Shown: piece after piece, positions 2,050 through 19,936 of the stretch | Position numbering within the stretch: the first letter of the stretch is position 1 | How the letters are laid out: the number at the start of each line of letters is the position of its first letter | Made by a program: the position numbers and the translations under genes | IMG/VR virus record: IMGVR_UViG_3300027797_000166 | Coordinates: 1 to 21,508 of that record | DNA from: a virus | Strand: one strand, 5' to 3' | DNA: 21,508 bases | The notes under the pieces: model-generated | Database searches by the model: none | Told to the model about the DNA's origin: nothing | What the model saw: the letters and a program-made list of their open reading frames with translations, nothing else

Positions 2050-2508
2050 ATGGCGAATGGAATAACATATGGAATAAATTTTCCCTTCAGAGAATCATTT
2101 GTTGGTAGGTATTTAGATGCCTCAGACACAAGTGAAGAGGAGGTAAGAAGTAATTTAGTTCACTTATTATTAAGTAAGAAAGGAACTAGATACTTTCTTC
2201 CTGATTTTGGGTCAAGATTATATGAATATATTTTTGAACCATTAGATGGACCTACCTTTAGTGAAATTGAAAGTGAAATAAGGGATTCGGTTGGTAAATA
2301 TATGCCTGGTATTCTAATAACAAGTATTAAAATTACCGACGCATCAATGGGGGATGAAAATAAGGGGACATACATTAATCAATATGGTGAAAAAGAGTTT
2401 ACAGTTCCTAATATTGCACAATTAGAACACACCGCAAAAATTAAGATTGATTATAGAAATACTAATAATGCCTTTAACCCAACTGATTTTGTAATTATTA
2501 ATATTTAA
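2050..2508 (+). CDS. gp25: Baseplate wedge protein, T4 gp25 / P2 W (GPW_gp25) family
   Basis: This is a small wedge subunit of contractile tail baseplates and the sheath-initiating partner of gp6. At 152 aa it is slightly longer than T4 gp25 (132 aa). The family signature is clear: VRSNLVHLLLSKKGTRYFLPDFGSRLYEYIFEP at about residues 32-64, written here only to name the region, contains the conserved R-x-N-L-x-x-L-L-L, the G-T/E-R turn, the PDFG motif and the following L-x-x-x-x-F-E-P. It is followed by an amphipathic segment (EIESEIRDSV) and the I-x-I strands at the C-terminus. An acidic insertion near residues 97-115 explains the extra length. The ATG at 2050 is the first start after the terminator. 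The next gene, also a wedge protein, begins 6 bases after the stop, so the two are probably cotranscribed. Confidence 0.92.
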   Translation: MANGITYGINFPFRESFVGRYLDASDTSEEEVRSNLVHLLLSKKGTRYFLPDFGSRLYEYIFEPLDGPTFSEIESEIRDSVGKYMPGILITSIKITDASMGDENKGTYINQYGEKEFTVPNIAQLEHTAKIKIDYRNTNNAFNPTDFVIINI

Positions 2509-2514
2509 TAGTAT

Positions 2515-4353
2515 ATGGCAAATAAAAAAATATCGTACACAACAAGAGATTTCGCAGGTATAAGATCTGAGTTGATAAACTTCACAAGAACTTATTATCC
2601 TGATTTAGTCCAAAACTTTAATGATGCTGGTGTATTCTCAGTATTATTGGATTTAAATGCTGCCGTAACGGATAACCTACAATTCCAAATTGATAGAAGT
2701 ATTCAAGAAACCGTATTACAATACGCACAACAAAAATCATCAATTTATAATATTGCAAGAACATATGGTTTAAAGATCCCAGGATCAAGACCATCAGTTG
2801 CCTTAGTTGACTTTTCAATTACAGTTCCCGCTTTTGGGGATAAAGAAGATTTAAGATATTGTGGAGTATTGAGAAGAGGATCTCAATTAAACGGTGCTGG
2901 TCAACCATTTGAAACTGTTTATGATATTGATTTTTCTTCTTCTGTAAATGCGGAAGGTTCACCTAATAGATTAAAAATCCCAAACTTTGATGCTAATGGT
3001 AACATTTTAAATTATACTATTACAAAAAGAGAAGTTATTGTTAATGGGATAACAAAAGTTTTTAAAAGAGTAATTACCCCAAATGATGTTAAACCTTTCT
3101 TTGATTTATTTTTACCTGAAAAAAATGTTTTAGGCATTACTAGTGTTTTATTAAAGGATGGAACACAATACACTTCTCCACCGGCACCACAAGAATTTTT
3201 AGGTTTAAATAATAGATGGTATGAAGTGCAAGCGTTGGCTGAAGATAGAGTATTTGTGGAAGACCCAACTAAACCATCAGATCAACCTGGTATTAAAGTT
3301 GGTAAATATATTGTTACTAATAATAAATTTATAAGTGAATATACACCGGAAGGATTTACTAAATTAACGTTTGGTGGTGGAAATGTGTCTGCAGATGAAC
3401 AATTAAGAGAGTTTGCTAGAGATGGTGTTGGTTTTGACCTTAACAAATATGTTAATAATTTTGCTTTAGGTAGTGCATTAAAATCAAATTCAACATTATT
3501 CATCCAATACAGAGTTGGTGGTGGTCAATCAACTAACTTGGGGGTTAATATAATCACTCAAGTTGGTACCGTTTCATTTTTTGTTAATGGACCATCAGAT
3601 TCGGTAAATGCGAGTGTTGTGAACTCTTTAAGGGTAAACAATGTAACTGCGGCAATTGGAGGGGCAAACCCACCCACAACCGAAGAGGTTAGACAATATG
3701 TAACATATAACTTTGCGGCACAAAACAGAGCGGTTACAGTCAATGACTATGAATCTATAATAAGAACAATGCCATCTCAATTTGGTGCTCCGGGTAAAGT
3801 TTCAATTGTTGAAGAAAACAATAAAATAAAGGTTAAAATGTTGTCTTATGATGTTAATGGTAACTTAACTGAGATAACATCAAACGTATTAAAAAGTAAT
3901 GTTGCAAATTACCTCTCTAATTATAGAATGATTAATGATTACATATCTGTGGAAACGGCAAATGTAATTGATTTGGCATTTGAAATTGATGTTGTTTTAG
4001 ATGCTAGCCAAAATCAAGGATCTATTGTTTCTAAAATTATCAATATTGTTACAACATATTTTAGTCCTACTGTTCGAGGGTTAGGTCAGAATGTTTATAT
4101 TTCCGAAATTAAGAGATTAATACAAAGTGAAAATGGGGTGATATCTATTTCTGAAATCAGAGCATTCAACAGAGTGGGTGGTCAATATTCTTCATCACAA
4201 ACATCTCAAAAATATTTAAATAATACAACAAAACAAATCGATTTAGTTGCCGACACAATTTTTGCTGAACCAACTCAAATATATCAAATTAGGTTCCCAA
4301 ACAAAGATATTAACGTGAGTGTGCTTAACTTTAAGACTATTAATTTCTCTTGA
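2515..4353 (+). CDS. gp6: Baseplate wedge protein, T4 gp6 / P2 J (Baseplate_J) family
   Basis: This is the core wedge subunit that forms the inner baseplate ring and passes the trigger for sheath contraction. Its length of 612 aa is close to T4 gp6 (660 aa). The N-terminus (ISYTTRDFAGIRSELINF, then DAGVFSVLLDLNAAVTDNLQFQ) is the typical opening of gp6-like proteins. The Baseplate_J hallmark NRAVTVNDYESI lies at about residues 404-415 and is followed by alternating strands and helices, with an ISEIKRLI segment typical of the C-terminal third. It sits directly after gene 25, as W and J do in P2. No Shine-Dalgarno sequence is seen; the leader is AT-rich. The large gene downstream starts after a 73-base gap that contains a TATTTAT motif. 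Confidence 0.9.
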   Translation: MANKKISYTTRDFAGIRSELINFTRTYYPDLVQNFNDAGVFSVLLDLNAAVTDNLQFQIDRSIQETVLQYAQQKSSIYNIARTYGLKIPGSRPSVALVDFSITVPAFGDKEDLRYCGVLRRGSQLNGAGQPFETVYDIDFSSSVNAEGSPNRLKIPNFDANGNILNYTITKREVIVNGITKVFKRVITPNDVKPFFDLFLPEKNVLGITSVLLKDGTQYTSPPAPQEFLGLNNRWYEVQALAEDRVFVEDPTKPSDQPGIKVGKYIVTNNKFISEYTPEGFTKLTFGGGNVSADEQLREFARDGVGFDLNKYVNNFALGSALKSNSTLFIQYRVGGGQSTNLGVNIITQVGTVSFFVNGPSDSVNASVVNSLRVNNVTAAIGGANPPTTEEVRQYVTYNFAAQNRAVTVNDYESIIRTMPSQFGAPGKVSIVEENNKIKVKMLSYDVNGNLTEITSNVLKSNVANYLSNYRMINDYISVETANVIDLAFEIDVVLDASQNQGSIVSKIINIVTTYFSPTVRGLGQNVYISEIKRLIQSENGVISISEIRAFNRVGGQYSSSQTSQKYLNNTTKQIDLVADTIFAEPTQIYQIRFPNKDINVSVLNFKTINFS

Positions 4354-4403
4354 TAATTTATTTTTAGTAAAAAAGAATTATTTTTTGAAAATAGGAAATA
4401 AAC

Positions 4404-4410
4404 TATTTAT
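4404..4410 (+). promoter_or_regulatory. Candidate late promoter motif TATTTAT before the 1861-aa gene
   Basis: TATTTAT followed by CAAAAAA lies 16 bases upstream of the ATG at 4427. The 73-base gap is otherwise A/T-rich, with no convincing terminator. If this is a -10-type element, the transcript leader would be very short. The evidence is recurrence of the heptamer in other gaps. Confidence 0.35.
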
Positions 4411-4426
4411 CAAAAAAGAGTAAATA

Positions 4427-7400
4427 ATGCCAAAATCATATAGAATAAGGACTACCCCTGGTAGTGACAAATCAATAAAGATTGAGTTAGAACAAGATTT
4501 TGAATTTTTGGAGATTTTATCTTTAAAGATAAATCAAGGTGACATATACTCAAGAATGTGTGCCGATTATGGTGTTATTATTGGTAGAGTTTTGGTTAAT
4601 AATGGGTATGGTTTGCCAAATGCAAGAGTTTCTGTTTTTATACCTATTGAAGATGCCGATTTAGAAAACCCAATTATATCTGAATTATATCCATATAAAT
4701 CAATTTCGGATGTCAATGAGGATGGTTACAGATATAATTTATTACCTAAAGAACCTTCTTATGCTGGTCACGCAGCAACTGGAACATTCCCAACAAAAAA
4801 TGAAGTATTAACAGATCAATCTTACGTTGAGGTTTATGACAAGTATTATAAGTTTAGTGTAAGAACAAATGATAGTGGTGATTATATGATTTTTGGCGTA
4901 CCAACAGGTACTCAAACATTATTAATGGATGTTGATTTATCTGATATTGGATGTTTTTCATTATCACCACAAGATTTAATTACCGCTGGATTAGGCGTTG
5001 AATCACAAGTTAATGGGTCAAGTTTTAAAACATCGACTAACTTAAATGAATTACCACAAATTGTTTCCTTAAATAAAATTATTGAGGTTGCTCCATTATG
5101 GGGGGAACCTGAAATTTGTTTATTAGGGATTACAAGATCGGATTTTGATTTAACGGCTAGTGCCAATATAACAATTAAACCAACATCTGTTTTCATGGGT
5201 TCATTAGTGGCCACAACAGATGATGATTCGGTTAAAGTAAGTTGTAAACCAAAAAATAATACGGGAAATTTATGTGAATTGGTTTCGGGACCTGGACAAA
5301 TTCTTTCAATAAGGCAAACAATTGAGGTTGATCAATATGGAAGACCTATACTTGAGGTTCACGAATTAGAAGAAAATGGAAAAGTAATTGATTCAGATGG
5401 GGTATTTTTAATTAATGTACCAATGAATTTAAATTATATTGTTACCAATGAATTTGGGGAACAAGTTTTATCGGACGACCAAACAAAGGGTATTCCGACA
5501 AAAGGTAAATATAGATTTAAATTTAAGTGGCAAAACGAACAAGGATTACAAAACCCATTTATGAGGGGCAACTACCTTGTTCCAAATATTAAAGAGTATG
5601 GGTGGACAAACTCCACACTTGATCCGCTACAACAATCATCAACAGGAATTCAATTAACAATACAACCATTACCACAACCTCCTGTTGGAACTATTAATAT
5701 TTTTTTATCAACTGGAGGTTTAGTTTTAGACAACCAAGCAAATATAAGTAGTTTTTCTGTTTTACTAAATGGTCTTCCTTATTTTGGAGATGTGACAAGT
5801 ATTCCGATTAATACGGTTCCAATGATTGTGACAATTAGTCCATTGTTAATTGATGTTACGTCTGCTGGTGTTTTAGATTTTGTATTTTATCAACAAGATA
5901 CGTTTGATGCCTTAAGATCATATGCCTTTAGTTTGGATTGGGATGATTATATTGATCCTCAAGAGGCAATAAATTGTGATGATACATTTTATGAGTTTAA
6001 TTATAATAAAGTATATACTACTGCAATGTTTTTGGACAGATTTAAATATGGTGCTGGTAGAGCGAGACATTTAGGGATAAAAGAAATTGACGATAGGACT
6101 TGTAAAACTACTGTTAATACATTTCCAACTAATGATATTATTCGAAATTTTGATTGGATCTTTTTCTTATTCAATTTATTATTAAATATATTGATTATAC
6201 CTCTTTTAGTTTTACTTTGGGTGGCTCATTTTGTTGCGTTTACGTGGAGAGTCCTTAAATATATGTTAATTTTTTATGCTATATTTTTAGGAATAGAGGC
6301 AATTGTGATTGCAACACAAGCGACATTGAGTTTAATTCAGGCAAGTACCACATTTAATCTTGGTGGTCCAGTAATAAGTCCTGGGTTAATATTAACGGTT
6401 GTTTATCAGTATTTTGTTGCGACAATAAAGCTAGCACTTTCAATTACATTTGCGTATTTTGTGAATAAATATGTAAATGCGAATTTAAACAACTTCCCAA
6501 GACTTGGTTTACCAATGATATCATCACCGGAATGTACCACTTGTGATTGTGAATGTAACAACGCAAACATTGATGATGTTACTACAGATTCAGTACAACA
6601 AGGTATTAATGATACGGTTTCTTCTCTTAGTTCAAGTTCAGAATTTGCACAATCGACCTCATTCTTAGCACCATTAAATTTGCCGGGAACATATGATGTT
6701 GAACACCCAAATTTTAAAATAAGACCGAATTATGATTTTGATGATAGTGGAAATGGTTATTTTGATTGTGGTGATCAATATTTATCTTTAACCTATTCTG
6801 TTAGTCAAAATGATATTGTTTCAGATGTTATTGTTAGATCAATTTTAGATTTTAAAAGACTTTTTTCTGGTTATGATGTGTTAACAGGTTTCCATGAATA
6901 TGAAAAGTTTCATGCTCCACAACCATTTCTATTCGCTGGTGATAAAAGTAGTGGTAATGATGATAGATGGTTTGGATATCCAACAAAGGAAACATTTCCA
7001 CAAAAACTTAATGAATTTAACACAAGAGATAAGTACTTTAATAATATTGGGTCTGGCGCTAATCAAGTAAAAATAACTGTTAATCCACAGTTAAGTTTAC
7101 CACCATATAATTTAGGGACACAACCATCATATAATGATCAAATTATTGTGTTATTAGTAAGATCTGGTACTGCTGCTCAAATTGGGGTTGGGAATTTAAT
7201 GACTTTCCAAGATCCAAATTATACACAACCAAATTCTTTAGTTTCAAGAAGAATTAATTTAACTGGTGGAACAATTAATCAATTTAATAATGGAGCAGTT
7301 ACAGGTACGACTCAATTGTCATCATTCCCTATTGGTGCGACTATCCCAACCCCAATATCTAAAATTGTTAATTATGCAAATCCCGCGAGTCCAACCTTAC

Positions 7401-10012
7401 CTCAATTAACGACAACCATTAATATAATTCAAACTGGTTATACCCAATCAAATGCAATCCAACAAGATGATTTCTTGAAGTATGATACTGATATGGAATA
7501 TTTTCAGTTAATAACTGGTTTAACAGTTAATGACTTTTATGGTCTTGACGATGTCACAAATACAAATCTATTTCCGGCAAAATACTTAAGACATCAAATA
7601 CAATATGTAATTACAGATCCTTGTAGTGTTAGTAATTCTAACCCAAATCAATCAGTTGCTTATTTTATACCAACGTTGGTAGGTAATCCTCCGATTCAGG
7701 CAAATAATTATGTTGCAATAGAAAATGTGTCGGATTATAAAAACTATGAGATTATATTTGTTGTAAAAGGTGTTGACCCACACACCTCAAAACAAAAAAT
7801 AAGTTATGATCTTTCTAGAATATTTGGATATAATTATAATCAACCTGGACTAACAATAACGGGTAATTATTTTTTAAATGTCCCGATACAGTCAACAGGT
7901 AGTGTTTTACCAAAAAGTCATAATACCACAACTAACACATCTCCAAATTTATATTTCCCATCATACACATTTAGTATAAGCCCAGCGATACCGGGTAATC
8001 AAAATTATACTGCGTTTACTTCTAACTTACCATATTATTATTTATCAACAGATGATACGTCATTAAATACTTTTTCTGAGGGTGGTTTATTTTATAAACC
8101 GGTGGGAAACTTCCCAATAATATCATCGTTAGGGACTAATGCGATTAATTCATCAAATGATTTTACATTACCTAGACAACAACCTGATTATATTGTTGGG
8201 GGTACATTTATTGCAGCAAATTTTAATGCACCATATAATGGAATTTCATATTATGATGGTGTTTCCGCAATTAATCAGTATGGTTATCCATTACCTACCT
8301 TGTTTGACATATTTTCTCTTTATTCTCCGGCGTATTATAGATATACAAATCCCGCGGCCTCAGGAGGTGTTAACTTTAATGATAGATCAAATTTGATAAT
8401 GAGAAGTGATAGATTACCAACATCAACTTGTGTTGAAAATGGTTTTGGAAGTAGAACTGGTTTTGCATTATTTCAAAATAATAATTTCTGTTATTATAGT
8501 TCAAAAGGTCTTGGATCGGTGCCTACATTTTCATTTGCGAGTAATTATGAGGTTTATGAATTGTTTGACCAATATAGTGGAACAACCTCGTTAACAGAAA
8601 CACTTACTTGTGAGAATCTAGTCCCGTTAAGTAGTTATTCTGGATCAGGAACAAATGTTGGTGTGTTACCTGTTAGTCAATGGTCTATACCTGAAGATAG
8701 GGTTGTAAAAGGTTGCTATTGTTTATTAAATAAAGATAATGACCCTAATGAAACTACTCATTATTATTTAATTAATGGAGCATATTCCGATGATGCTAGA
8801 TTATTATTAGAATGGAAAACTAGATTTACATTAGTGTTTGCCTCTTGTAGGGGGGTGTTTGCCCAAGTGTTCCAAAATAATTGGATTAATGGTACTTTAT
8901 ATATGCCATCATTTAATAAAAGATCAATCTACCCAATAAATAACATAACAACCCCAACTTATTTATATTGTAAAGATATGGTTGTTTATAATAATATCAG
9001 TAATAATTTTTATTACAGAAGTTCTCCTTGGTCAGAAAATGTACAACAATTCATTGGTAAAAAAATTAATCAACCATTAAATTGGTTTGGTATTAATGCT
9101 GGATATAATGACAAACAAATACTTTTCCCAACAACTGTTGTTGATATGGGACCAAGAGATTCCTTTGTTACCGAAATATGTGGAAATCCTAATTTTAAAG
9201 GTTATATGTCAAACCAATTTCAATCGACTAGTTATAATGAGAATTCTGATTTAATACAAATAGGGTTTTTATCAAGATTACTTAATGAAAATATCAGACA
9301 AGCAATGATACCGATTACGGTAAACGGAAATTCAAGTGAAGGAAAGGGTGTTAGTCAATTTTTTAATAGTAATAGAGGTGGGGAAAGAATAGATGGGGAT
9401 TTTGCTCAAGCTTTATCGATAAACTCTGAGTTTAAGATAAATCCATATATTGATGAAAATTATGCTAATAATGAAATTTATATTGGTGATGATGGTCAAT
9501 TGCCCTTCCCGTACAAACCTATTTTTGGGATATTCTATAAATCAAATGATCCTGAATATCGTACAAGAAGAAAATTCAGTCCGGGTATTGAAATCTACAA
9601 TACCTCACCATTAATACAAGATTCTTTTGGTTATCCAACAACTCAAGATGTACCAATGTACAGATGGAAATTAGAAACGTCTAATGTTATCTTTGGGTCA
9701 GAAGATAATAATTGGTATACAACGACATCTTTTTCGGGTGGATTCACGGTAAAAGGGTACCAAAATTTAGATTTTAGTTCAGATCCATATTTCATTTCGA
9801 ATACTTTAATTCCCGGTAACCAATTACCTAATGTACCACAAGGATTCATCACTAATTTTGATGTAAATGGTAATCCATTACCTAGTAATAGTAATGTCTT
9901 AAATAATAACGTATTAGTTGGAGGACCAAATCATTTTTATTTTGGTTTAAATAATGGTAAAACCGCGATAAATAGATTCATAAAAAAATACATTAATACT
10001 ACAGAAGAATAA
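4427..10012 (+). CDS. Giant tail/baseplate structural protein (1861 aa) with Ig-like N-terminus and central hydrophobic segments
   Basis: I do not recognise a T4 counterpart; the call rests on its place between gp6 and a gpI-like gene and on its composition. Residues about 49-175 look like a carboxypeptidase-regulatory/Ig-like fold (VIIGRVLVNNGYGLPNARVS, then SGDYMIFGVPTGTQTL). Residues about 410-510 look like an inserted beta-rich domain. Residues 575-683 hold three long hydrophobic stretches (about 578-604, 612-637, 652-679), followed by a cysteine cluster C703-x2-C706-x-C708-x-C710 and a Ser-rich linker. The remaining roughly 1150 residues are Asn/Tyr/Gly-rich and beta-type, as in virion surface proteins, and end near HFYFGLNNGKTAINRFIKKY. 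The stop overlaps the next start (TAATG), so translation is probably coupled. It could be a gp7/gp10-like wedge, a fibre anchor or a membrane-active tail protein. A tape measure is less likely, because it lacks long helical repeats. Confidence 0.7.
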   Translation: MPKSYRIRTTPGSDKSIKIELEQDFEFLEILSLKINQGDIYSRMCADYGVIIGRVLVNNGYGLPNARVSVFIPIEDADLENPIISELYPYKSISDVNEDGYRYNLLPKEPSYAGHAATGTFPTKNEVLTDQSYVEVYDKYYKFSVRTNDSGDYMIFGVPTGTQTLLMDVDLSDIGCFSLSPQDLITAGLGVESQVNGSSFKTSTNLNELPQIVSLNKIIEVAPLWGEPEICLLGITRSDFDLTASANITIKPTSVFMGSLVATTDDDSVKVSCKPKNNTGNLCELVSGPGQILSIRQTIEVDQYGRPILEVHELEENGKVIDSDGVFLINVPMNLNYIVTNEFGEQVLSDDQTKGIPTKGKYRFKFKWQNEQGLQNPFMRGNYLVPNIKEYGWTNSTLDPLQQSSTGIQLTIQPLPQPPVGTINIFLSTGGLVLDNQANISSFSVLLNGLPYFGDVTSIPINTVPMIVTISPLLIDVTSAGVLDFVFYQQDTFDALRSYAFSLDWDDYIDPQEAINCDDTFYEFNYNKVYTTAMFLDRFKYGAGRARHLGIKEIDDRTCKTTVNTFPTNDIIRNFDWIFFLFNLLLNILIIPLLVLLWVAHFVAFTWRVLKYMLIFYAIFLGIEAIVIATQATLSLIQASTTFNLGGPVISPGLILTVVYQYFVATIKLALSITFAYFVNKYVNANLNNFPRLGLPMISSPECTTCDCECNNANIDDVTTDSVQQGINDTVSSLSSSSEFAQSTSFLAPLNLPGTYDVEHPNFKIRPNYDFDDSGNGYFDCGDQYLSLTYSVSQNDIVSDVIVRSILDFKRLFSGYDVLTGFHEYEKFHAPQPFLFAGDKSSGNDDRWFGYPTKETFPQKLNEFNTRDKYFNNIGSGANQVKITVNPQLSLPPYNLGTQPSYNDQIIVLLVRSGTAAQIGVGNLMTFQDPNYTQPNSLVSRRINLTGGTINQFNNGAVTGTTQLSSFPIGATIPTPISKIVNYANPASPTLPQLTTTINIIQTGYTQSNAIQQDDFLKYDTDMEYFQLITGLTVNDFYGLDDVTNTNLFPAKYLRHQIQYVITDPCSVSNSNPNQSVAYFIPTLVGNPPIQANNYVAIENVSDYKNYEIIFVVKGVDPHTSKQKISYDLSRIFGYNYNQPGLTITGNYFLNVPIQSTGSVLPKSHNTTTNTSPNLYFPSYTFSISPAIPGNQNYTAFTSNLPYYYLSTDDTSLNTFSEGGLFYKPVGNFPIISSLGTNAINSSNDFTLPRQQPDYIVGGTFIAANFNAPYNGISYYDGVSAINQYGYPLPTLFDIFSLYSPAYYRYTNPAASGGVNFNDRSNLIMRSDRLPTSTCVENGFGSRTGFALFQNNNFCYYSSKGLGSVPTFSFASNYEVYELFDQYSGTTSLTETLTCENLVPLSSYSGSGTNVGVLPVSQWSIPEDRVVKGCYCLLNKDNDPNETTHYYLINGAYSDDARLLLEWKTRFTLVFASCRGVFAQVFQNNWINGTLYMPSFNKRSIYPINNITTPTYLYCKDMVVYNNISNNFYYRSSPWSENVQQFIGKKINQPLNWFGINAGYNDKQILFPTTVVDMGPRDSFVTEICGNPNFKGYMSNQFQSTSYNENSDLIQIGFLSRLLNENIRQAMIPITVNGNSSEGKGVSQFFNSNRGGERIDGDFAQALSINSEFKINPYIDENYANNEIYIGDDGQLPFPYKPIFGIFYKSNDPEYRTRRKFSPGIEIYNTSPLIQDSFGYPTTQDVPMYRWKLETSNVIFGSEDNNWYTTTSFSGGFTVKGYQNLDFSSDPYFISNTLIPGNQLPNVPQGFITNFDVNGNPLPSNSNVLNNNVLVGGPNHFYFGLNNGKTAINRFIKKYINTTEE
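6149..6475 (+). other. Membrane-type hydrophobic region inside the 1861-aa protein
   Basis: This codes residues 575-683. Three stretches of 25-28 residues are almost free of charge (the first runs WIFFLFNLLLNILIIPLLVL and onward), separated by short linkers with R608/K611 and a Gly-Pro turn at about 646-653. By eye they would score as transmembrane helices. The stretch lies in one open frame with its flanks and has no stop or frame change, so it belongs to the protein. It is followed by CTTCDCEC at residues 703-710 (bases 6533-6556), a possible metal-binding or disulfide cluster. Confidence 0.75.
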
Positions 10013-13842: not shown

Positions 13843-14751
13843 GTGGCAACAGGTAGTTACGGAACAATAAGAAGTGCAGATGTTAGTCCTGATGATGTTG
13901 AAATAATTTTAAATTATACACCATCAAGAGACGAGACAGACAATTTTGTATTAACAAAATTAAATGCTAGTACGGTATTACGGCCATATTATCATAATGC
14001 AAATACCGGTGGTAATGCAAATGTTGAAATCCTTGGGGGTTTATATAACCTTAAATTACCAACCGATCAGTTTAATAAATTAGGTATTTATACCTTATAT
14101 ATTAGACCTGCGGAGATAAGAACTAAAATTTTGGATTGTGGTATTTTATCTGCATTACCAAATGTAAAAGGTATTGTAATCGATATTAATAATGTACCAT
14201 CTAATTTTAGAAATAAGTTCATTAATCAAGGGTTAGTAGGGTTTAGGGTTGAATACTTAAATTCTAATGGAACAAAAATACCTAATTTCTTTAGAATAAT
14301 AACATCGTCATTTTATTGTGAACCTATTTTTGAAAACTTAACAAACACTTCACAAAAATCTATTAGATATAGATACATTGAATCATCTACAAATTTAATT
14401 TTTTGTACCTTATCACCATCTTCTTCCCCAACTAATAAACCAAACGCAACTCCGTTTATTGGGCAACCAGATCAAAACATAATAATTTCGAACACTTATT
14501 TTAACCCAACAACTGTTGAGATTGAGATTGTTGAAAATGACATATCAACACTTGCAATTGCATTGTACGGTAACCAAACAAAATCTATGGATGACGGAAT
14601 TTACACGGTATACGATAGTGATAATAATATTTATAAACAATATAACCTTTATGAAATAAAAGATCAATTTAATAATCTATTGTATGAGGTAAAACAAGAT
14701 AGAGGTGATAATATTGACTTTAGTAAAAACTTTTCAAACATAACTTCATAA
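13843..14751 (+). CDS. Uncharacterised structural-region protein (302 aa), GTG start
   Basis: I do not recognise this family. GTG at 13843 is the only plausible start, because the same frame has a stop at 13828-13830 and no ATG between. The A-rich leader with no Shine-Dalgarno sequence fits a Bacteroidetes host. The protein opens MATGSYGTIRSADVSPDDVE. It continues as beta-type sequence with LGIYTLYIRPAEIRTKILDCGIL at about residues 86-108 and VVIDI-like strands. It has a Ser/Pro/Asn-rich loop near 192-210 and a C-terminal segment (GIYTVYDSDNNIYKQYNLYE) ending in polar residues. It has no signal peptide or membrane helix. Its stop overlaps the start of the 1005-aa gene (TAATG), so the pair is probably translated together and the products may bind each other. 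Confidence 0.6.
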   Translation: MATGSYGTIRSADVSPDDVEIILNYTPSRDETDNFVLTKLNASTVLRPYYHNANTGGNANVEILGGLYNLKLPTDQFNKLGIYTLYIRPAEIRTKILDCGILSALPNVKGIVIDINNVPSNFRNKFINQGLVGFRVEYLNSNGTKIPNFFRIITSSFYCEPIFENLTNTSQKSIRYRYIESSTNLIFCTLSPSSSPTNKPNATPFIGQPDQNIIISNTYFNPTTVEIEIVENDISTLAIALYGNQTKSMDDGIYTVYDSDNNIYKQYNLYEIKDQFNNLLYEVKQDRGDNIDFSKNFSNITS

Positions 14752-17700
14752 TGGCGGTAAATAAATATAAATGTCCTCCTCAAACGGCAAGCGGTCAAGG
14801 GACTTTTTCTGACAACATAGTTGGTTTCCAATTAGTTGGTGGGGGAGGTCTGACGCAAGCAAATTTTGAGTTTACGACAAGTATTACCGAAAAACAAGAT
14901 AGAACTTTTACAATTGGTTCGTTCTCCGATCCAATATCATTAGACACGTTAAATATGGCTAATGTTGAACAATCAAGAATATTGGTTGCAAATAACTTTA
15001 GAGTTTATCCAAATTTTGATTTAAGTCAGGTTACTAATTTTACGTTATTTGGGTCATTAGTAAAAAGATTATCTAGTTCTATTACAAATATAATAAGTTA
15101 CTTTCCTGCGGCATTAGATGTTAGGTCAACACAAACAAATTTTGTTGTGGGTGAGACGGCACAAAATGTGTCTTTTGATAGTGTTCAAAACGAAACTTAT
15201 TTTGAAATTCCAATAACAAAGATTATTAATCCATTTAATATAGATTATAGTGTTAATGCTACAAGAAACTTAGAATTAAGAGAAGTGCAAGTTTCATATT
15301 TAAGAAATTTTACAACACAATATACAAAATATTCGGTTTTTATAAATGAAAACGAATATCCGGTTACAGATATAATACCGGTTGAGGAAAATGATACGGT
15401 TTTAAAATTATATGTTGATGGAAATCCATTTTTGGGTACCCCCTCAAGTATGGAAGATTTTTTAATAAAACCAAAAGAATTATACACCAATAAGACATTT
15501 AACGAAGACTTAGATCCAGTTGAAAACTTTTTATTAAATAGGGAGATTGTTCCAAAATATAGTTCATACTTCCAAACACCAAAAGAAGCGGACGATGGTA
15601 ATTATTATTTTACACAAGAAGTTGCAATATTCCCATTAAATGGTGCTTGGAATTTAGATATTACAACAAACAAGTTTACGCAATATTTAACTAAGTTAAA
15701 TGATATTGGTGAAAGTTTAGATTCGTATAAAACAAATTTAATTGTTAGATTTTTAACTGCTGACGCTATTAAAGAATTTGACACCCCTGATCAAAAAATT
15801 CAAAAAGTATTACAAATATATGGTAGAAGTTTTGATGAAACAAGAACATTTATTAGTGCTCTTGCTAATATGAATTCTGTTAACTATACGATCAAAAATG
15901 ACATACCATCTCAATTACTTAAAAACTTAGCACAAACTTTGGGTTGGAACATTAATATTTCCCCAATTACAAATGATGAGTTATTAAGTTCTGTTTTTAG
16001 TAATGGTAGTAATTCGTTTACGGGTTTACCTATGGGTCAAACACCGGAAGAATTAAATTACCAATATTTTAGAAATTTAATTCTAAATTCCGCATATTTG
16101 TTTAAATCAAAAGGTACTCGTAAATCAATAGAAATTCTTTTAAGAATGGTTGGTGCCCCTGAGGCCTTAACTGAATTTAATGAACATATTTATCTTGCGG
16201 ATCAGAAAATTAATCTGAAACAATTTAATCAACAATATTTACAAATATCTGGAGGTACATACAGTCAAGAAATCCCTATTTTAGATACGAATAATTTATT
16301 TTCAATACAAGGTGTCCAATATACGGGATTTACAACAACAACTATAACCCAAGATGTTGGGTTAACATTGGAGGACTATCCTGTTGATAGTTATGGTTTT
16401 CCGAGTATGCCAGTTGAGACTGAGAGTTACTTCTTCCAAATTGGTGGAGGTTGGTTTGAGTCAACACCACAACATAGGATGCCGGCTAAGGTTGATTTAA
16501 CAAATAGTGTTTTCACTGGTAATAATCCTAATTATCAAACAAAACTTTTACCATTTAATTACGGTCAAGAATATTTAGATAGATATAGAGAATTCCCATA
16601 TATGAATGTTGGGTTTAATCTTATAAAAACTATAGATAATAATAAATCTTGGACTAATAGTGAAAAATATTTAAGAAAAAATAGTGATGGTAACTTTAAT
16701 GCTTATTATGGGACATCTGATGATAGGTTAGTTATAAATGTTAAGAATGTTGATTTATTTATGAATCCGGCACAAGGTCTACTATATGATGTGTGGACAA
16801 TGTCAAGAAGATATAATTACCCAATTCCTGAACAAGGTCTATTTTATGTTGATCCAACTTATTGTAATCCATACCCAAATCTTCAATATCCGCAAAGGGG
16901 GGGTATTGACTGGACTGAGATAATACCAAAACCAAAAGAAAAAACATTTTTTGAATTTGCACAAACTTTTTGGAAGAATATGATTAATGTTAGAAATAGA
17001 CAATTTATTACTGACGGTAAAACAAGTGGGTACCCAACACTATCCTCAATCTATTGGAAATACTTAGAATCTGAAGGATCAATAAATATCCCTAATGATA
17101 ATTTCACATATCAAACAATGATTGATTATGTAAATGGTATGGGGGATTATTGGGTAAGATTGGTGGAACAAATGATTCCGGCAACAACAATTTGGAATAC
17201 GGGAGTTAAATATGAAAATTCAATTTTTCATAGACAAAAGTTTGTTTGGAGAAGACAAAGAGGGTGTGAAATTGTTCCAATACCTTGTAAACCTTGTAAA
17301 TTAATAAGTCAATTATTTGCATATGATTGTCCTGTACAACAAACAATAATAGGTCTTTATCCTTGGGATACAAATCCATCAATTACATCTTTTGGGGCAT
17401 TATTAGGTGATACTTTAACAACTTATGGGGTAAATAATAATGTAGACATTAATAATGACTGTTTATTAAATACACTTGAAAGTGAGTGGTATATTGATGT
17501 AAGAGTAGATGGTGTTTTAATTTTAATATATGAATTTTTTAATGGTATTGGATATTCAAACCCATCATTAAGTGTCCCAACACAAAATGATTGGGTTGAT
17601 GCGTTAAACACTGGTTTAGTTGGTTTACTTGATTATGGTTTGGACTATCTTATAAATGAAACAGATCAAACAATAACAATATATAATAATAATTGTTTGC

Positions 17701-17768
17701 CGCTTAATGTAACCCAAAATTTTGAATTAAATGTGGGTATAAACTTTGATATTTTATGTAATCCGTGA
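14751..17768 (+). CDS. Large baseplate protein (1005 aa) with a P2 gpI-like (gp7-role) central domain
   Basis: Residues about 385-470 carry the pattern of the phage tail protein I family. LLKNLAQTLGWNI is followed by an aromatic helix (YFRNLILNSAYLFKSKGTRK) and SIEILLRMVGAPEAL, with the K-G-T turn at 454-456. In P2-like baseplates gpI follows gpJ and plays the T4 gp7 wedge role, so this is the best gp7 candidate here, although separated from gp6 by four genes. The N-terminal 200 residues are beta-rich, with a glycine run VGGGGL near residue 28. A cysteine set C839-x6-C846-x2-C849 precedes a C-terminal module (about 835-1005; cysteines C904, C982, C1003) that recurs at the end of the 723-aa protein. 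The 3' end overlaps the next start by four bases (GTGA). A structural role is likely; the gp7 role is inferred. Confidence 0.7.
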   Translation: MAVNKYKCPPQTASGQGTFSDNIVGFQLVGGGGLTQANFEFTTSITEKQDRTFTIGSFSDPISLDTLNMANVEQSRILVANNFRVYPNFDLSQVTNFTLFGSLVKRLSSSITNIISYFPAALDVRSTQTNFVVGETAQNVSFDSVQNETYFEIPITKIINPFNIDYSVNATRNLELREVQVSYLRNFTTQYTKYSVFINENEYPVTDIIPVEENDTVLKLYVDGNPFLGTPSSMEDFLIKPKELYTNKTFNEDLDPVENFLLNREIVPKYSSYFQTPKEADDGNYYFTQEVAIFPLNGAWNLDITTNKFTQYLTKLNDIGESLDSYKTNLIVRFLTADAIKEFDTPDQKIQKVLQIYGRSFDETRTFISALANMNSVNYTIKNDIPSQLLKNLAQTLGWNINISPITNDELLSSVFSNGSNSFTGLPMGQTPEELNYQYFRNLILNSAYLFKSKGTRKSIEILLRMVGAPEALTEFNEHIYLADQKINLKQFNQQYLQISGGTYSQEIPILDTNNLFSIQGVQYTGFTTTTITQDVGLTLEDYPVDSYGFPSMPVETESYFFQIGGGWFESTPQHRMPAKVDLTNSVFTGNNPNYQTKLLPFNYGQEYLDRYREFPYMNVGFNLIKTIDNNKSWTNSEKYLRKNSDGNFNAYYGTSDDRLVINVKNVDLFMNPAQGLLYDVWTMSRRYNYPIPEQGLFYVDPTYCNPYPNLQYPQRGGIDWTEIIPKPKEKTFFEFAQTFWKNMINVRNRQFITDGKTSGYPTLSSIYWKYLESEGSINIPNDNFTYQTMIDYVNGMGDYWVRLVEQMIPATTIWNTGVKYENSIFHRQKFVWRRQRGCEIVPIPCKPCKLISQLFAYDCPVQQTIIGLYPWDTNPSITSFGALLGDTLTTYGVNNNVDINNDCLLNTLESEWYIDVRVDGVLILIYEFFNGIGYSNPSLSVPTQNDWVDALNTGLVGLLDYGLDYLINETDQTITIYNNNCLPLNVTQNFELNVGINFDILCNP

Positions 17769-19495
17769 GTTGTGGTCTAATAACATATAATCTTTTTATT
17801 ACCGGTGATTGTACAAATACAAATGTCGGTGAAATTTATATTGAAATAACGGGGGGTAGTGCCCCGTATACCGTTTATGAATCGTCAACTACCGGGGTTT
17901 TACCAACATCAGCGGCAACAACCACATATTATTATAGTGGTCTTTCTGCCGATACCTATGTTTTGGCGATACAAGATTCTTGCATTTCTGGGGTGTCTAC
18001 CGTATATCTTAATATACCGATATCTTCGGGAACATCAATAAGTATAGTTGATTCTAGTGGTACAACTTGTAATCAAGATAATGGACAAATAACATTTGGG
18101 TTTTCACCTTTTTATGGTGTTGGTGAAGCGTATCTATATGAAACAACTAATGGGTATGTGGCGAGTGCAATAACGCCAACAAATACTGTATCATTTGGGT
18201 CACTTTCGGGTGGGACATATTATATTGTTGGTGATGATGGTGCGGGATGTACCGGAACTAGTGCTAGTTGTGTTATCTTACCCTCAACTCAATTAACTTA
18301 TGGTTTTTATATTGTAGATGATGCGAGTTGTTTGATTAATAGTGGATCGGGTAAAATATTTGTTACGGGAGAAACAGGTGTTTCACCATATACATATTTA
18401 TGGAGTAATGGTCAAACGGGATCAACAATAACCGGATTAACTGCGGGTTTTTATACCGTTACAGTTACCGACTATAGAGGATGTTCGGTTACTCAAAGTG
18501 GTTATGTTAATAATGTACCACCTGTTGGTATCTCGTCCTTTTTAACAACGGGGAGTACTTGTTTTTCAAATGATGGGTCGGTTGAGGTTTTTGTTACAGG
18601 AGGTACCCCACCGTATTTCTTTTCTGGGTCAAATGGTGATACAACAATAACATTTGGTAATAGTTATTTATTTGAATTTTTACCTTCGGGCACTTTAACG
18701 GTTACTGTAACCGATGCCGGATTATGTACGGACACACAAAGCGTAAATCTGTTAACACCAAATGGTTTTACAATAGCGACAATATCAACATCAAATTCTA
18801 TTTGTAGTAATAATGCTGGATCAATAACCATTGTTGTTAATACTGGATCACCAAGTGCCACATTTATTTATACATTATTAGATTCTTCGGGAAACACTGT
18901 TAGTACTGTCAGTCTTGGTGCGTTATGTGTATTTAATGGTCTACCATCTGACACATATAGCATATCTATTGATAATAATTCTGGATGTGTATATAATGGA
19001 ACTGCAACAATATTTAACACTAATCTTTTTACTATAAGTGCGGTTACAACAAATACGACTTGTGGATTGAACAATGGTTCCGTTCAGTTACTTGCGAGTA
19101 GTGGAGGAACCTTACCTTATAGTTATCAAATTACGGGTTTCGGAGCTGGACCTGTATCCACATTTACTAATTTACCGTTTGGTAACTATTTAGCGACTGT
19201 TTCGGACGTTAATGGATGTGTACAAACACTTTCATTTACAATCCAACCATCAAGTAATGTGTACTTTAATTTATTTGTAATACAACCCATTGTTGGTAAC
19301 GATGGTCAAATAACCACATTAATTAGTAGTGGTACTCCACCATTTACTTACAATTGGAGTTCAAATGTTAATGGTCAGACAGGTTCAACACTAACTAACT
19401 TAACTGCCGACACATATACTTTACAAGTTATTGACTCATCTGGATGTACTTTTACAAGAAATGTTATTTTGGGTGGAACTTTTTTAATAAATTCA
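17765..19495 (+). repeat. Seven divergent SprB-like protein repeats
   Basis: Units begin near residues 1, 93, 181, 258, 339, 427 and 503 of the 723-aa protein. Each unit has a cysteine near its start and most have a D-x-x-G-C near the end. The repeats are recognisable only at the protein level; DNA copies are strongly diverged, so recent slippage expansion is unlikely. Unit 2 and unit 5 are the most divergent, and unit 7 lacks the first cysteine. Confidence 0.7.
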
Positions 19496-19936
19496 TATCA
19501 ACTATATAATATTAGTAATACAACATTTACTAATAGTAATATTGTGGGTAAAAGAGGTGTTGGGCAAATGTTTAATGAAGGGTTTTTTGATTTAGTGTTA
19601 GATGATGACAATTGTATTATTAATAGTGCTAATTTTATTGCTGAGGTGAGTGTAAATGGTGAGGTTAAACAACAAGAATTTTATGTTTCTTCAGGGATTT
19701 ATGATTATCCTAATGATTTAGAATGGGCAAATACTGTAAAAGACTTGGCGTTGTCTTTTCCCGATATTGGTGAAGTTGATTTTGACCTAACAAAAAATAA
19801 AATTACATTAGTAAACAATTGTGGTAATGTAAAAAAATTCTGTAAACCAACATTTTATAACAACTTATCAGATGCTAAAGTTGAAATATCATTAATTATA
19901 AATTACGATATTTCTTGTGTTAGTTGTAATGTATAA
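17765..19936 (+). CDS. SprB-repeat tail fibre/adhesin-like protein (723 aa)
   Basis: The gene starts at a GTG that overlaps the previous stop (GTGA), so it is probably coupled to the 1005-aa gene. Residues 1-577 are about seven Ig-like repeats of roughly 75-90 aa, each with the SprB-type pattern: a cysteine near the start, N-G-S/Q as the next strand opens, a G-G-T-P-P-Y-like turn, a G-L/P-x-A-x-x-Y-T-V strand, then D-x-x-G-C. The clearest is repeat 3 (SPYTYLWSNGQTGSTITGLT followed by AGFYTVTVTDYRGC). SprB is the surface adhesin of flavobacterial gliding, and such repeats occur in many Bacteroidetes cell-surface proteins. Residues 578-723 are a different, acidic module with cysteines C617, C686 and C718 that matches the end of the 1005-aa protein. 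No signal peptide is present, as expected for a virion part. It is likely a host-binding fibre or baseplate adhesin. Confidence 0.75.
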   Translation: MSCGLITYNLFITGDCTNTNVGEIYIEITGGSAPYTVYESSTTGVLPTSAATTTYYYSGLSADTYVLAIQDSCISGVSTVYLNIPISSGTSISIVDSSGTTCNQDNGQITFGFSPFYGVGEAYLYETTNGYVASAITPTNTVSFGSLSGGTYYIVGDDGAGCTGTSASCVILPSTQLTYGFYIVDDASCLINSGSGKIFVTGETGVSPYTYLWSNGQTGSTITGLTAGFYTVTVTDYRGCSVTQSGYVNNVPPVGISSFLTTGSTCFSNDGSVEVFVTGGTPPYFFSGSNGDTTITFGNSYLFEFLPSGTLTVTVTDAGLCTDTQSVNLLTPNGFTIATISTSNSICSNNAGSITIVVNTGSPSATFIYTLLDSSGNTVSTVSLGALCVFNGLPSDTYSISIDNNSGCVYNGTATIFNTNLFTISAVTTNTTCGLNNGSVQLLASSGGTLPYSYQITGFGAGPVSTFTNLPFGNYLATVSDVNGCVQTLSFTIQPSSNVYFNLFVIQPIVGNDGQITTLISSGTPPFTYNWSSNVNGQTGSTLTNLTADTYTLQVIDSSGCTFTRNVILGGTFLINSYQLYNISNTTFTNSNIVGKRGVGQMFNEGFFDLVLDDDNCIINSANFIAEVSVNGEVKQQEFYVSSGIYDYPNDLEWANTVKDLALSFPDIGEVDFDLTKNKITLVNNCGNVKKFCKPTFYNNLSDAKVEISLIINYDISCVSCNV

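Follow-up and report, generated by a model that had tools for sequence, protein, structure and literature searches.

A hydrophobic block linked with a cysteine element in a giant protein of a phage baseplate operon: a candidate membrane module

The window analysed here, the whole 21,508-nt stretch of IMG/VR virus record IMGVR_UViG_3300027797_000166 (positions 1 to 21,508), carries gp25-like and gp6/Baseplate_J genes that are recognized by profiles and stand next to each other, thus identifying a contractile-tail wedge operon (Table 1). Placement of the giant 1861-aa protein in the baseplate region, as proposed in an initial sequence-only reading of this DNA, is borne out by the position of its gene in that operon and by the order gp25-gp6-giant, which is near universal and found in nearly all relatives. 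Directly upstream of gp25 lies a gene (14-1951) that by eye resembles the ribonucleotide reductase large subunit, and its relatives occupy this position in many of the related loci. The baseplate operon ends with a gene (17765-19936) whose 723-aa product contains five SprB repeats (Pfam E 3e-21), which are typical of surface adhesins of Bacteroidota.

Table 1. Genes of the baseplate operon and parts of the giant protein, in coordinates of the window
Feature	Position (nt)	Strand	Evidence
gp25-like baseplate wedge protein	2050..2508	+	PF04965 E 4.8e-10; phrog_261 E 4.9e-14
gp6-like (Baseplate_J) wedge protein	2515..4353	+	PF04865 E 1.9e-6; phrog_219 E 2.1e-24
gp6-giant gap, 73 nt; site of the small Cys-TM gene in distant relatives, empty here	4354..4426	+	
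Giant baseplate-operon protein, 1861 aa	4427..10012	+	ORF; relatives; no Pfam/PHROG/PDB family
Family-defining N-terminal region, residues 1-390	4427..5596	+	E 3e-120 to 2.5e-49, distant relatives
Beta-sandwich, residues 403-490, in a stretch variable between families	5633..5896	+	AlphaFold2 DSSP; 9f4b_F2 Z 7.8, weak
Conserved stem preceding the block, residues 505-572 (YNKVYTTAMFLDRF...HLGIKEIDDRTC...NTFPTND)	5939..6142	+	Identity 80% near, 28% far
Hydrophobic helix 1 of the block, residues 577-641	6155..6349	+	AlphaFold2; hydrophobicity
Hydrophobic helix 2 of the block, residues 652-686, reached via a loop with conserved GP	6380..6484	+	AlphaFold2
CxxCxCxC cluster (CTTCDCEC), residues 703-710	6533..6556	+	Invariant, near clade
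Clade-specific insert, about residues 713-1470, separating the cysteine cluster from the C-terminal core	6563..8836	+	Missing from compact relatives
C-terminal core, residues 1475-1861 (NNWINGTLYMP to HFYFGLNNGKTAINRF)	8849..10009	+	HMM match, distant compact relatives
1005-aa protein, leading candidate for a wedge partner of the gp7/P2 gpI type	14751..17768	+	Weak Tail_P2_I signal

The giant fits none of the sequence families of Pfam, PHROGs or the PDB, tblastn gave it no relative among 50,697 phage records, and no match to solved wedge proteins was obtained. In the T4 gp6-gp7 and P2 J-I arrangements, gp7 or gpI stands directly after gp6, as the giant does; here, however, it is the 1005-aa protein and not the giant that shows a Tail_P2_I signal, albeit a weak one, Tail_P2_I being the Pfam family matched by the most relatives of this protein (3/19, best E 0.017). 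The assignment of the giant as gp7 was set aside on this weak preference for its neighbour. Between the giant and gp7-like proteins there was no sequence match and none by Foldseek, the lack of a fold match being in itself no exclusion. With the 1005-aa protein as the better gp7 candidate, the giant is best placed as an extra component beside gp25, gp6 and the gp7-like protein. Homology to the downstream proteins of Flavobacterium phage immuto, Microcystis phage Mel-JY01 and the 484-kb uncultured phage LR756508 was also considered and rejected: their gp6 matches, and the N-domain and core profiles give no hit. In the viral structure library (BFVD), the model of the giant has a single clear match, Myoviridae sp. 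ctPuP5 A0A8S5LA66 (E 4.2e-42, 39% identity), itself uncharacterised.

Within the giant, nt 6149-6556 encode residues 575-710 of the 1861-aa product, exactly as the sequence-only reading had placed its hydrophobic block and cysteine cluster. Residues 575-683 are indeed nearly uncharged (only one Asp, one Glu, three Lys, one Arg and one His, hence 7 charged/His in 109 positions), and CTTCDCEC follows at the expected residues. The best 19-aa Kyte-Doolittle mean in the giant is 2.76, at residue 578; other window proteins have no segment above 1.52 and, in an approximate biological-scale scan, no predicted transmembrane segment. The same scan predicts two strong transmembrane segments in the window giant, at 577-599 and 612-630; in some relatives, L001 and L049 for example, the later one is stronger. 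Hydropathy and the approximate energy scale thus predict a capacity to span the bilayer. Judged by composition, the single hydrophobic peak is moderately unusual (mean of shuffles 1.92, top of 2000 shuffles 2.91, observed 2.76), and CxxCxCxC was met by chance in 1/20,000 shuffles. Since the peak is just moderately improbable by shuffling, the case for a real feature rests on conservation.

Such conservation is complete among the closest relatives. A scan of viral contigs yielded 597 relatives, the 80 closest of which were retrieved and examined, and in 80/80 of these best 80 of 597 a hydrophobic block is kept in the same place, along with a CxxCxCxC motif. The cysteines C703, C706, C708 and C710, together with C559, are invariant in an alignment of 29 sequences. 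In this near clade, which includes contigs of 290 kb and 273 kb, the block sequence is less conserved than its flanks, with little or no variation at the polar and aromatic positions N583, N587, H601, W607 and K611 and likely kinks of helix 1 at P592 and 607-608.

By sequence comparison, the giant is a member of an undescribed family distributed over hundreds of uncultured phage contigs of up to 412 kb. Its N-terminal 260-390 residues are shared by four contigs from prokaryote genome bins, and searches with two of these four gave 160 further loci, many of them from jumbo phages of up to 412 kb; a viral-contig scan from L084 gave no match. A cellular origin was rejected: GTDB genomes yielded 4 MAG-derived contigs, and among 296 genomes of its phylum the query's own MAG alone was found. 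The family core of ~750-1200 residues comprises N-domain, stem (NKVYT...GIK...NxFPxN), block slot, a strand motif (FxNDWxNGxLY) and a C-terminal motif (FYFGLxxGxTAxxxF). Family members range from 728 to >3000 aa, and the window protein carries an extra ~760 residues that separate its core from the cysteine cluster. Built from the compact relatives, an HMM of the core matches the window protein at 1482-1498 and 1837-1858 (whole-protein E 4.8e-9). For the N-domain, matches to PF13620 are sub-threshold only (E 0.0037-0.27), and a hit to KimA permease (E 0.07) was set aside as generic hydrophobic similarity. The shortest complete block-bearing version seen, L251 (G010:C55; bin labelled Bacteroidota), has 809 aa, is accompanied by gp6 and a small MCC-TM gene, and so retains both block and partner in compact form.

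Across this wider family, a 19-aa hydropathy of at least 1.6 is reached by 226/230 relatives of at least 640 aa as compared to 16/680 other ORFs of at least 400 aa from the same loci, and a value of at least 2.0 by 210/230 as compared to 4/680. In the far families, the N-domain is 42% identical to that of the window protein, the stem 28% and the block, where the alignment itself is uncertain, 9%. With hydrophobicity retained as identity falls to 9%, it is the property of the block that is conserved, not its sequence. All predicted transmembrane segments of the family lie within residues 400-700.

The far families place a small ORF (~66-150 aa) between gp6 and the giant gene (e.g., L205:7755-7988, L109:6556-6987 and L251:9228-9434). 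Its product has an N-terminal M-x-C-x-C-K or M-x-C-x-T-C-K/N in which M1, C3 and C5 are invariant, one very hydrophobic segment (2.3-3.7) and a basic tail; no consistent Pfam or PHROG match was found for it. The stop codon of the small ORF lies at most 20 nt from, or overlaps, the start of the giant gene in 114/133 cases. In the window's clade the gene is absent from the flanks, and the 290-kb and 273-kb contigs gave no significant match to it. Counted under relaxed motif rules and with an upstream scan to 900 nt, 98 block-bearing relatives have a cis PxCxxC after the block and no small gene, and ~128 have the small TM gene; 4 of the 128 also fit the cis pattern, within a cysteine-rich stretch. 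The cis motif reads PxCxxCxC in the sister clade and PxCxxC in L135/L167, and the window has SPEC where others have YPEC. An ORF inserted into the gap of L171 and L175 may have moved their small gene beyond the 900-nt limit, and L208 has too little upstream sequence for a call; L177, in which the block is present and neither cis cluster nor small gene was found, is a real exception as far as the data go.

Homologues without the block, named in the sequence-only reading as evidence that would count against its proposal, do exist; they are a few exceptions (L082, L084, L091, L217, L220, L221 and possibly L085, which is truncated), and in none of the first six was an intact partner found. L220/L221 keep a small ORF with M(A/S)CNCK and a degenerate TM segment (1.3), and their sister L217, whose contig is cut at residue 499, shows no block and no small gene. 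In the tree, the cis group is a single clade (100/100) and L217/L220/L221 nest within the small-TM clade (100/98), from which it appears that block and partner TM were lost together. Resting on few independent clade-level events, the cis/trans linkage is suggestive and not statistical proof.

Several further features of these loci were noted. The giants of L092, L094, L096 and L109, which form one clade, have a long cysteine-rich stretch after the block (~residues 520-700), in addition to the small CxxC protein. Inserted ORFs that by eye are endonuclease/TnpB-like occur in the gp6-giant gap or nearby in L171, L175, L176, L177, L183 and L221 (4115-5260), and the gap is possibly an insertion hot spot. 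ORFs inserted beside the giant gene in L035, L037 (near clade), L169, L170 and L185 start with a similar tag, approximately (K)xxIRLTExDLxRIVKxxVxR, which possibly is an N-terminal signal shared in these phages.

Structure prediction refined the picture of the block. The AlphaFold2 model of residues 1-760 (pLDDT 78, pTM 0.64) replaces the three helices initially suggested by a two-helix hairpin (577-641 and 652-686), and around the cysteine cluster it shows disorder (pLDDT <50). The core model of L205 (pLDDT 83, pTM 0.83) has one 39-aa hydrophobic helix (467-505, pLDDT ~90) between strands. In the blockless L220, a short linker joins the stem to the FYNDW strand; the flanks of the block are thus probably on the same side of any membrane, which favours an even number of predicted crossings, as in a hairpin, rather than three. 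Prediction of the protein alone gave no confident model that places the helices inside an ordinary soluble bundle. That they are packed into a bundle between copies, or with helices of gp6 or the gp7-like protein, and never meet lipid is nevertheless a reading to be weighed, for the AlphaFold2 helices exceed one membrane span (65 aa), the polar residues among the fixed positions (N583, N587, H601, K611) are conserved in the near clade, and helical bundles join the wedge subunits in T4-like baseplates. We regard it as improbable, given a block that at 9% identity stays hydrophobic across families with conserved flanks, that is linked to a separate TM protein, and that is lost in some relatives while the core is retained.

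The models of the window protein and of L205 are beta-rich, in agreement with the earlier argument against a tape measure. The N-domain, earlier called Ig-like, is nearer to a transthyretin/carboxypeptidase-regulatory fold (residues 49-248: VIA-align to 2nsm Z 8.6 over 76 residues at 2.0 A; L205 Z 6.5); Foldseek and VIA searches of the PDB gave no whole-protein relative, their matches falling mainly on the N-domain. Tape-measure and ejection proteins are virion-encoded, with hydrophobic segments thought to enter host membranes, and they differ from the giant in fold, place and gene order. Were the giant a tape measure or another protein of the tube lumen, with the membrane-penetrating segments usual in such proteins, this would account for hydrophobic segments, which are common there, and for the finding of no tape measure in the possibly related moraphages (PMC12619734). 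This reading is hardly credible in view of beta-rich models with a transthyretin-like domain, where an extended helical fold filling the tube would be expected, of family lengths from 728 to >3000 aa, and of a gene fixed beside gp6.

Hydrophobicity kept without sequence, together with the linked small Cys-TM protein, much strengthens the membrane role first suggested for the block. We read the block, which stands beside gp6, retains its hydrophobicity across the family and is linked with a cysteine element, as forming with the cis cluster or the small protein one membrane module of the baseplate. The block would be the part by which the giant, a baseplate-associated protein over and above gp25, gp6 and the gp7-like protein, interacts with the membrane. 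It would be a hydrophobic helix or hairpin that separates two portions of a beta-rich core and may work with a cysteine element provided in cis as CxxCxCxC (the window's clade) or in trans on a small single-TM protein (most other clades). Giant and small protein would form a complex, and copies would be arranged around the baseplate. Our leading, still tentative interpretation is that the module inserts into the host envelope at infection; shielded in the virion, it would enter the envelope on tail contraction and then anchor the baseplate or line the path taken by the tube. A role of the cysteines in binding metal or locking the module is a further guess. Support is better for an interaction with a membrane than for the time at which it occurs. 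Against insertion at infection, hydrophobic segments on the virion surface need shielding, for which the models show no means, and a small TM protein synthesized in the infected cell would end up in that cell's own inner membrane, which fits docking during assembly at least as well.

In this docking scenario, module and small TM protein would keep baseplates under construction attached to the inner membrane of the infected cell, and virions would be set free at lysis. In favour of this, the small protein plausibly crosses a membrane once and is encoded together with the giant; tethering of a baseplate to a membrane is known from the thylakoid contractile injection system (CIS) of Anabaena, where the fibre-like Cis13 carries a TM domain whose deletion detaches the CIS from the membrane (PMC8894136); and procapsid assembly of SPP1 is reported to be membrane-associated (PMC13212656). 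Virions leaving the membrane would, however, carry exposed hydrophobic hairpins, and in the window's clade the module, being covalently part of the giant, cannot be left behind. To our knowledge, no phage baseplate assembles in this manner, and docking seems to us possible though doubtful. The thylakoid CIS (Cis12/Cis13) and the docked baseplates of T6SS resemble the giant in having baseplate-linked parts that contact a membrane; the TM domain of the CIS is on a tail-fibre-like protein of a bacterial injection system, whereas the phage protein studied here is beta-rich, encoded next to gp6 and combined with a cysteine element, and no sequence or fold link to Cis12, Cis13 or T6SS was found.

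Moraphages, jumbo phages of aquatic and mostly freshwater Bacteroidota (200-307 kb) with gp25 and T4-like tail genes (PMC12619734), resemble the window's clade in size (contigs of 290 and 273 kb), and the available portion of their description mentions no such membrane protein. From the SprB-repeat protein and this resemblance, the host is probably a member of the Bacteroidota. Returning to insertion at infection and carrying it further, one may speculate, with considerable reserve, that in huge contractile phages of a widespread group the giant copies and their partner TM element form a ring or anchor around the tail tube in the host envelope, held by a cysteine (possibly metal) latch that is built in or supplied separately.

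It is still little understood how contractile phages pass large genomes across two membranes after sheath contraction, and as a rule baseplates are regarded as soluble machines. A conserved, putative membrane module next to gp6, occurring with natural cis/trans and loss variants, renders the question testable. The study adds two families that Pfam and PHROGs lack, one of widespread baseplate proteins and one of small membrane proteins, and the pattern they form suggests a built-in device to grip or cross the bacterial membrane.
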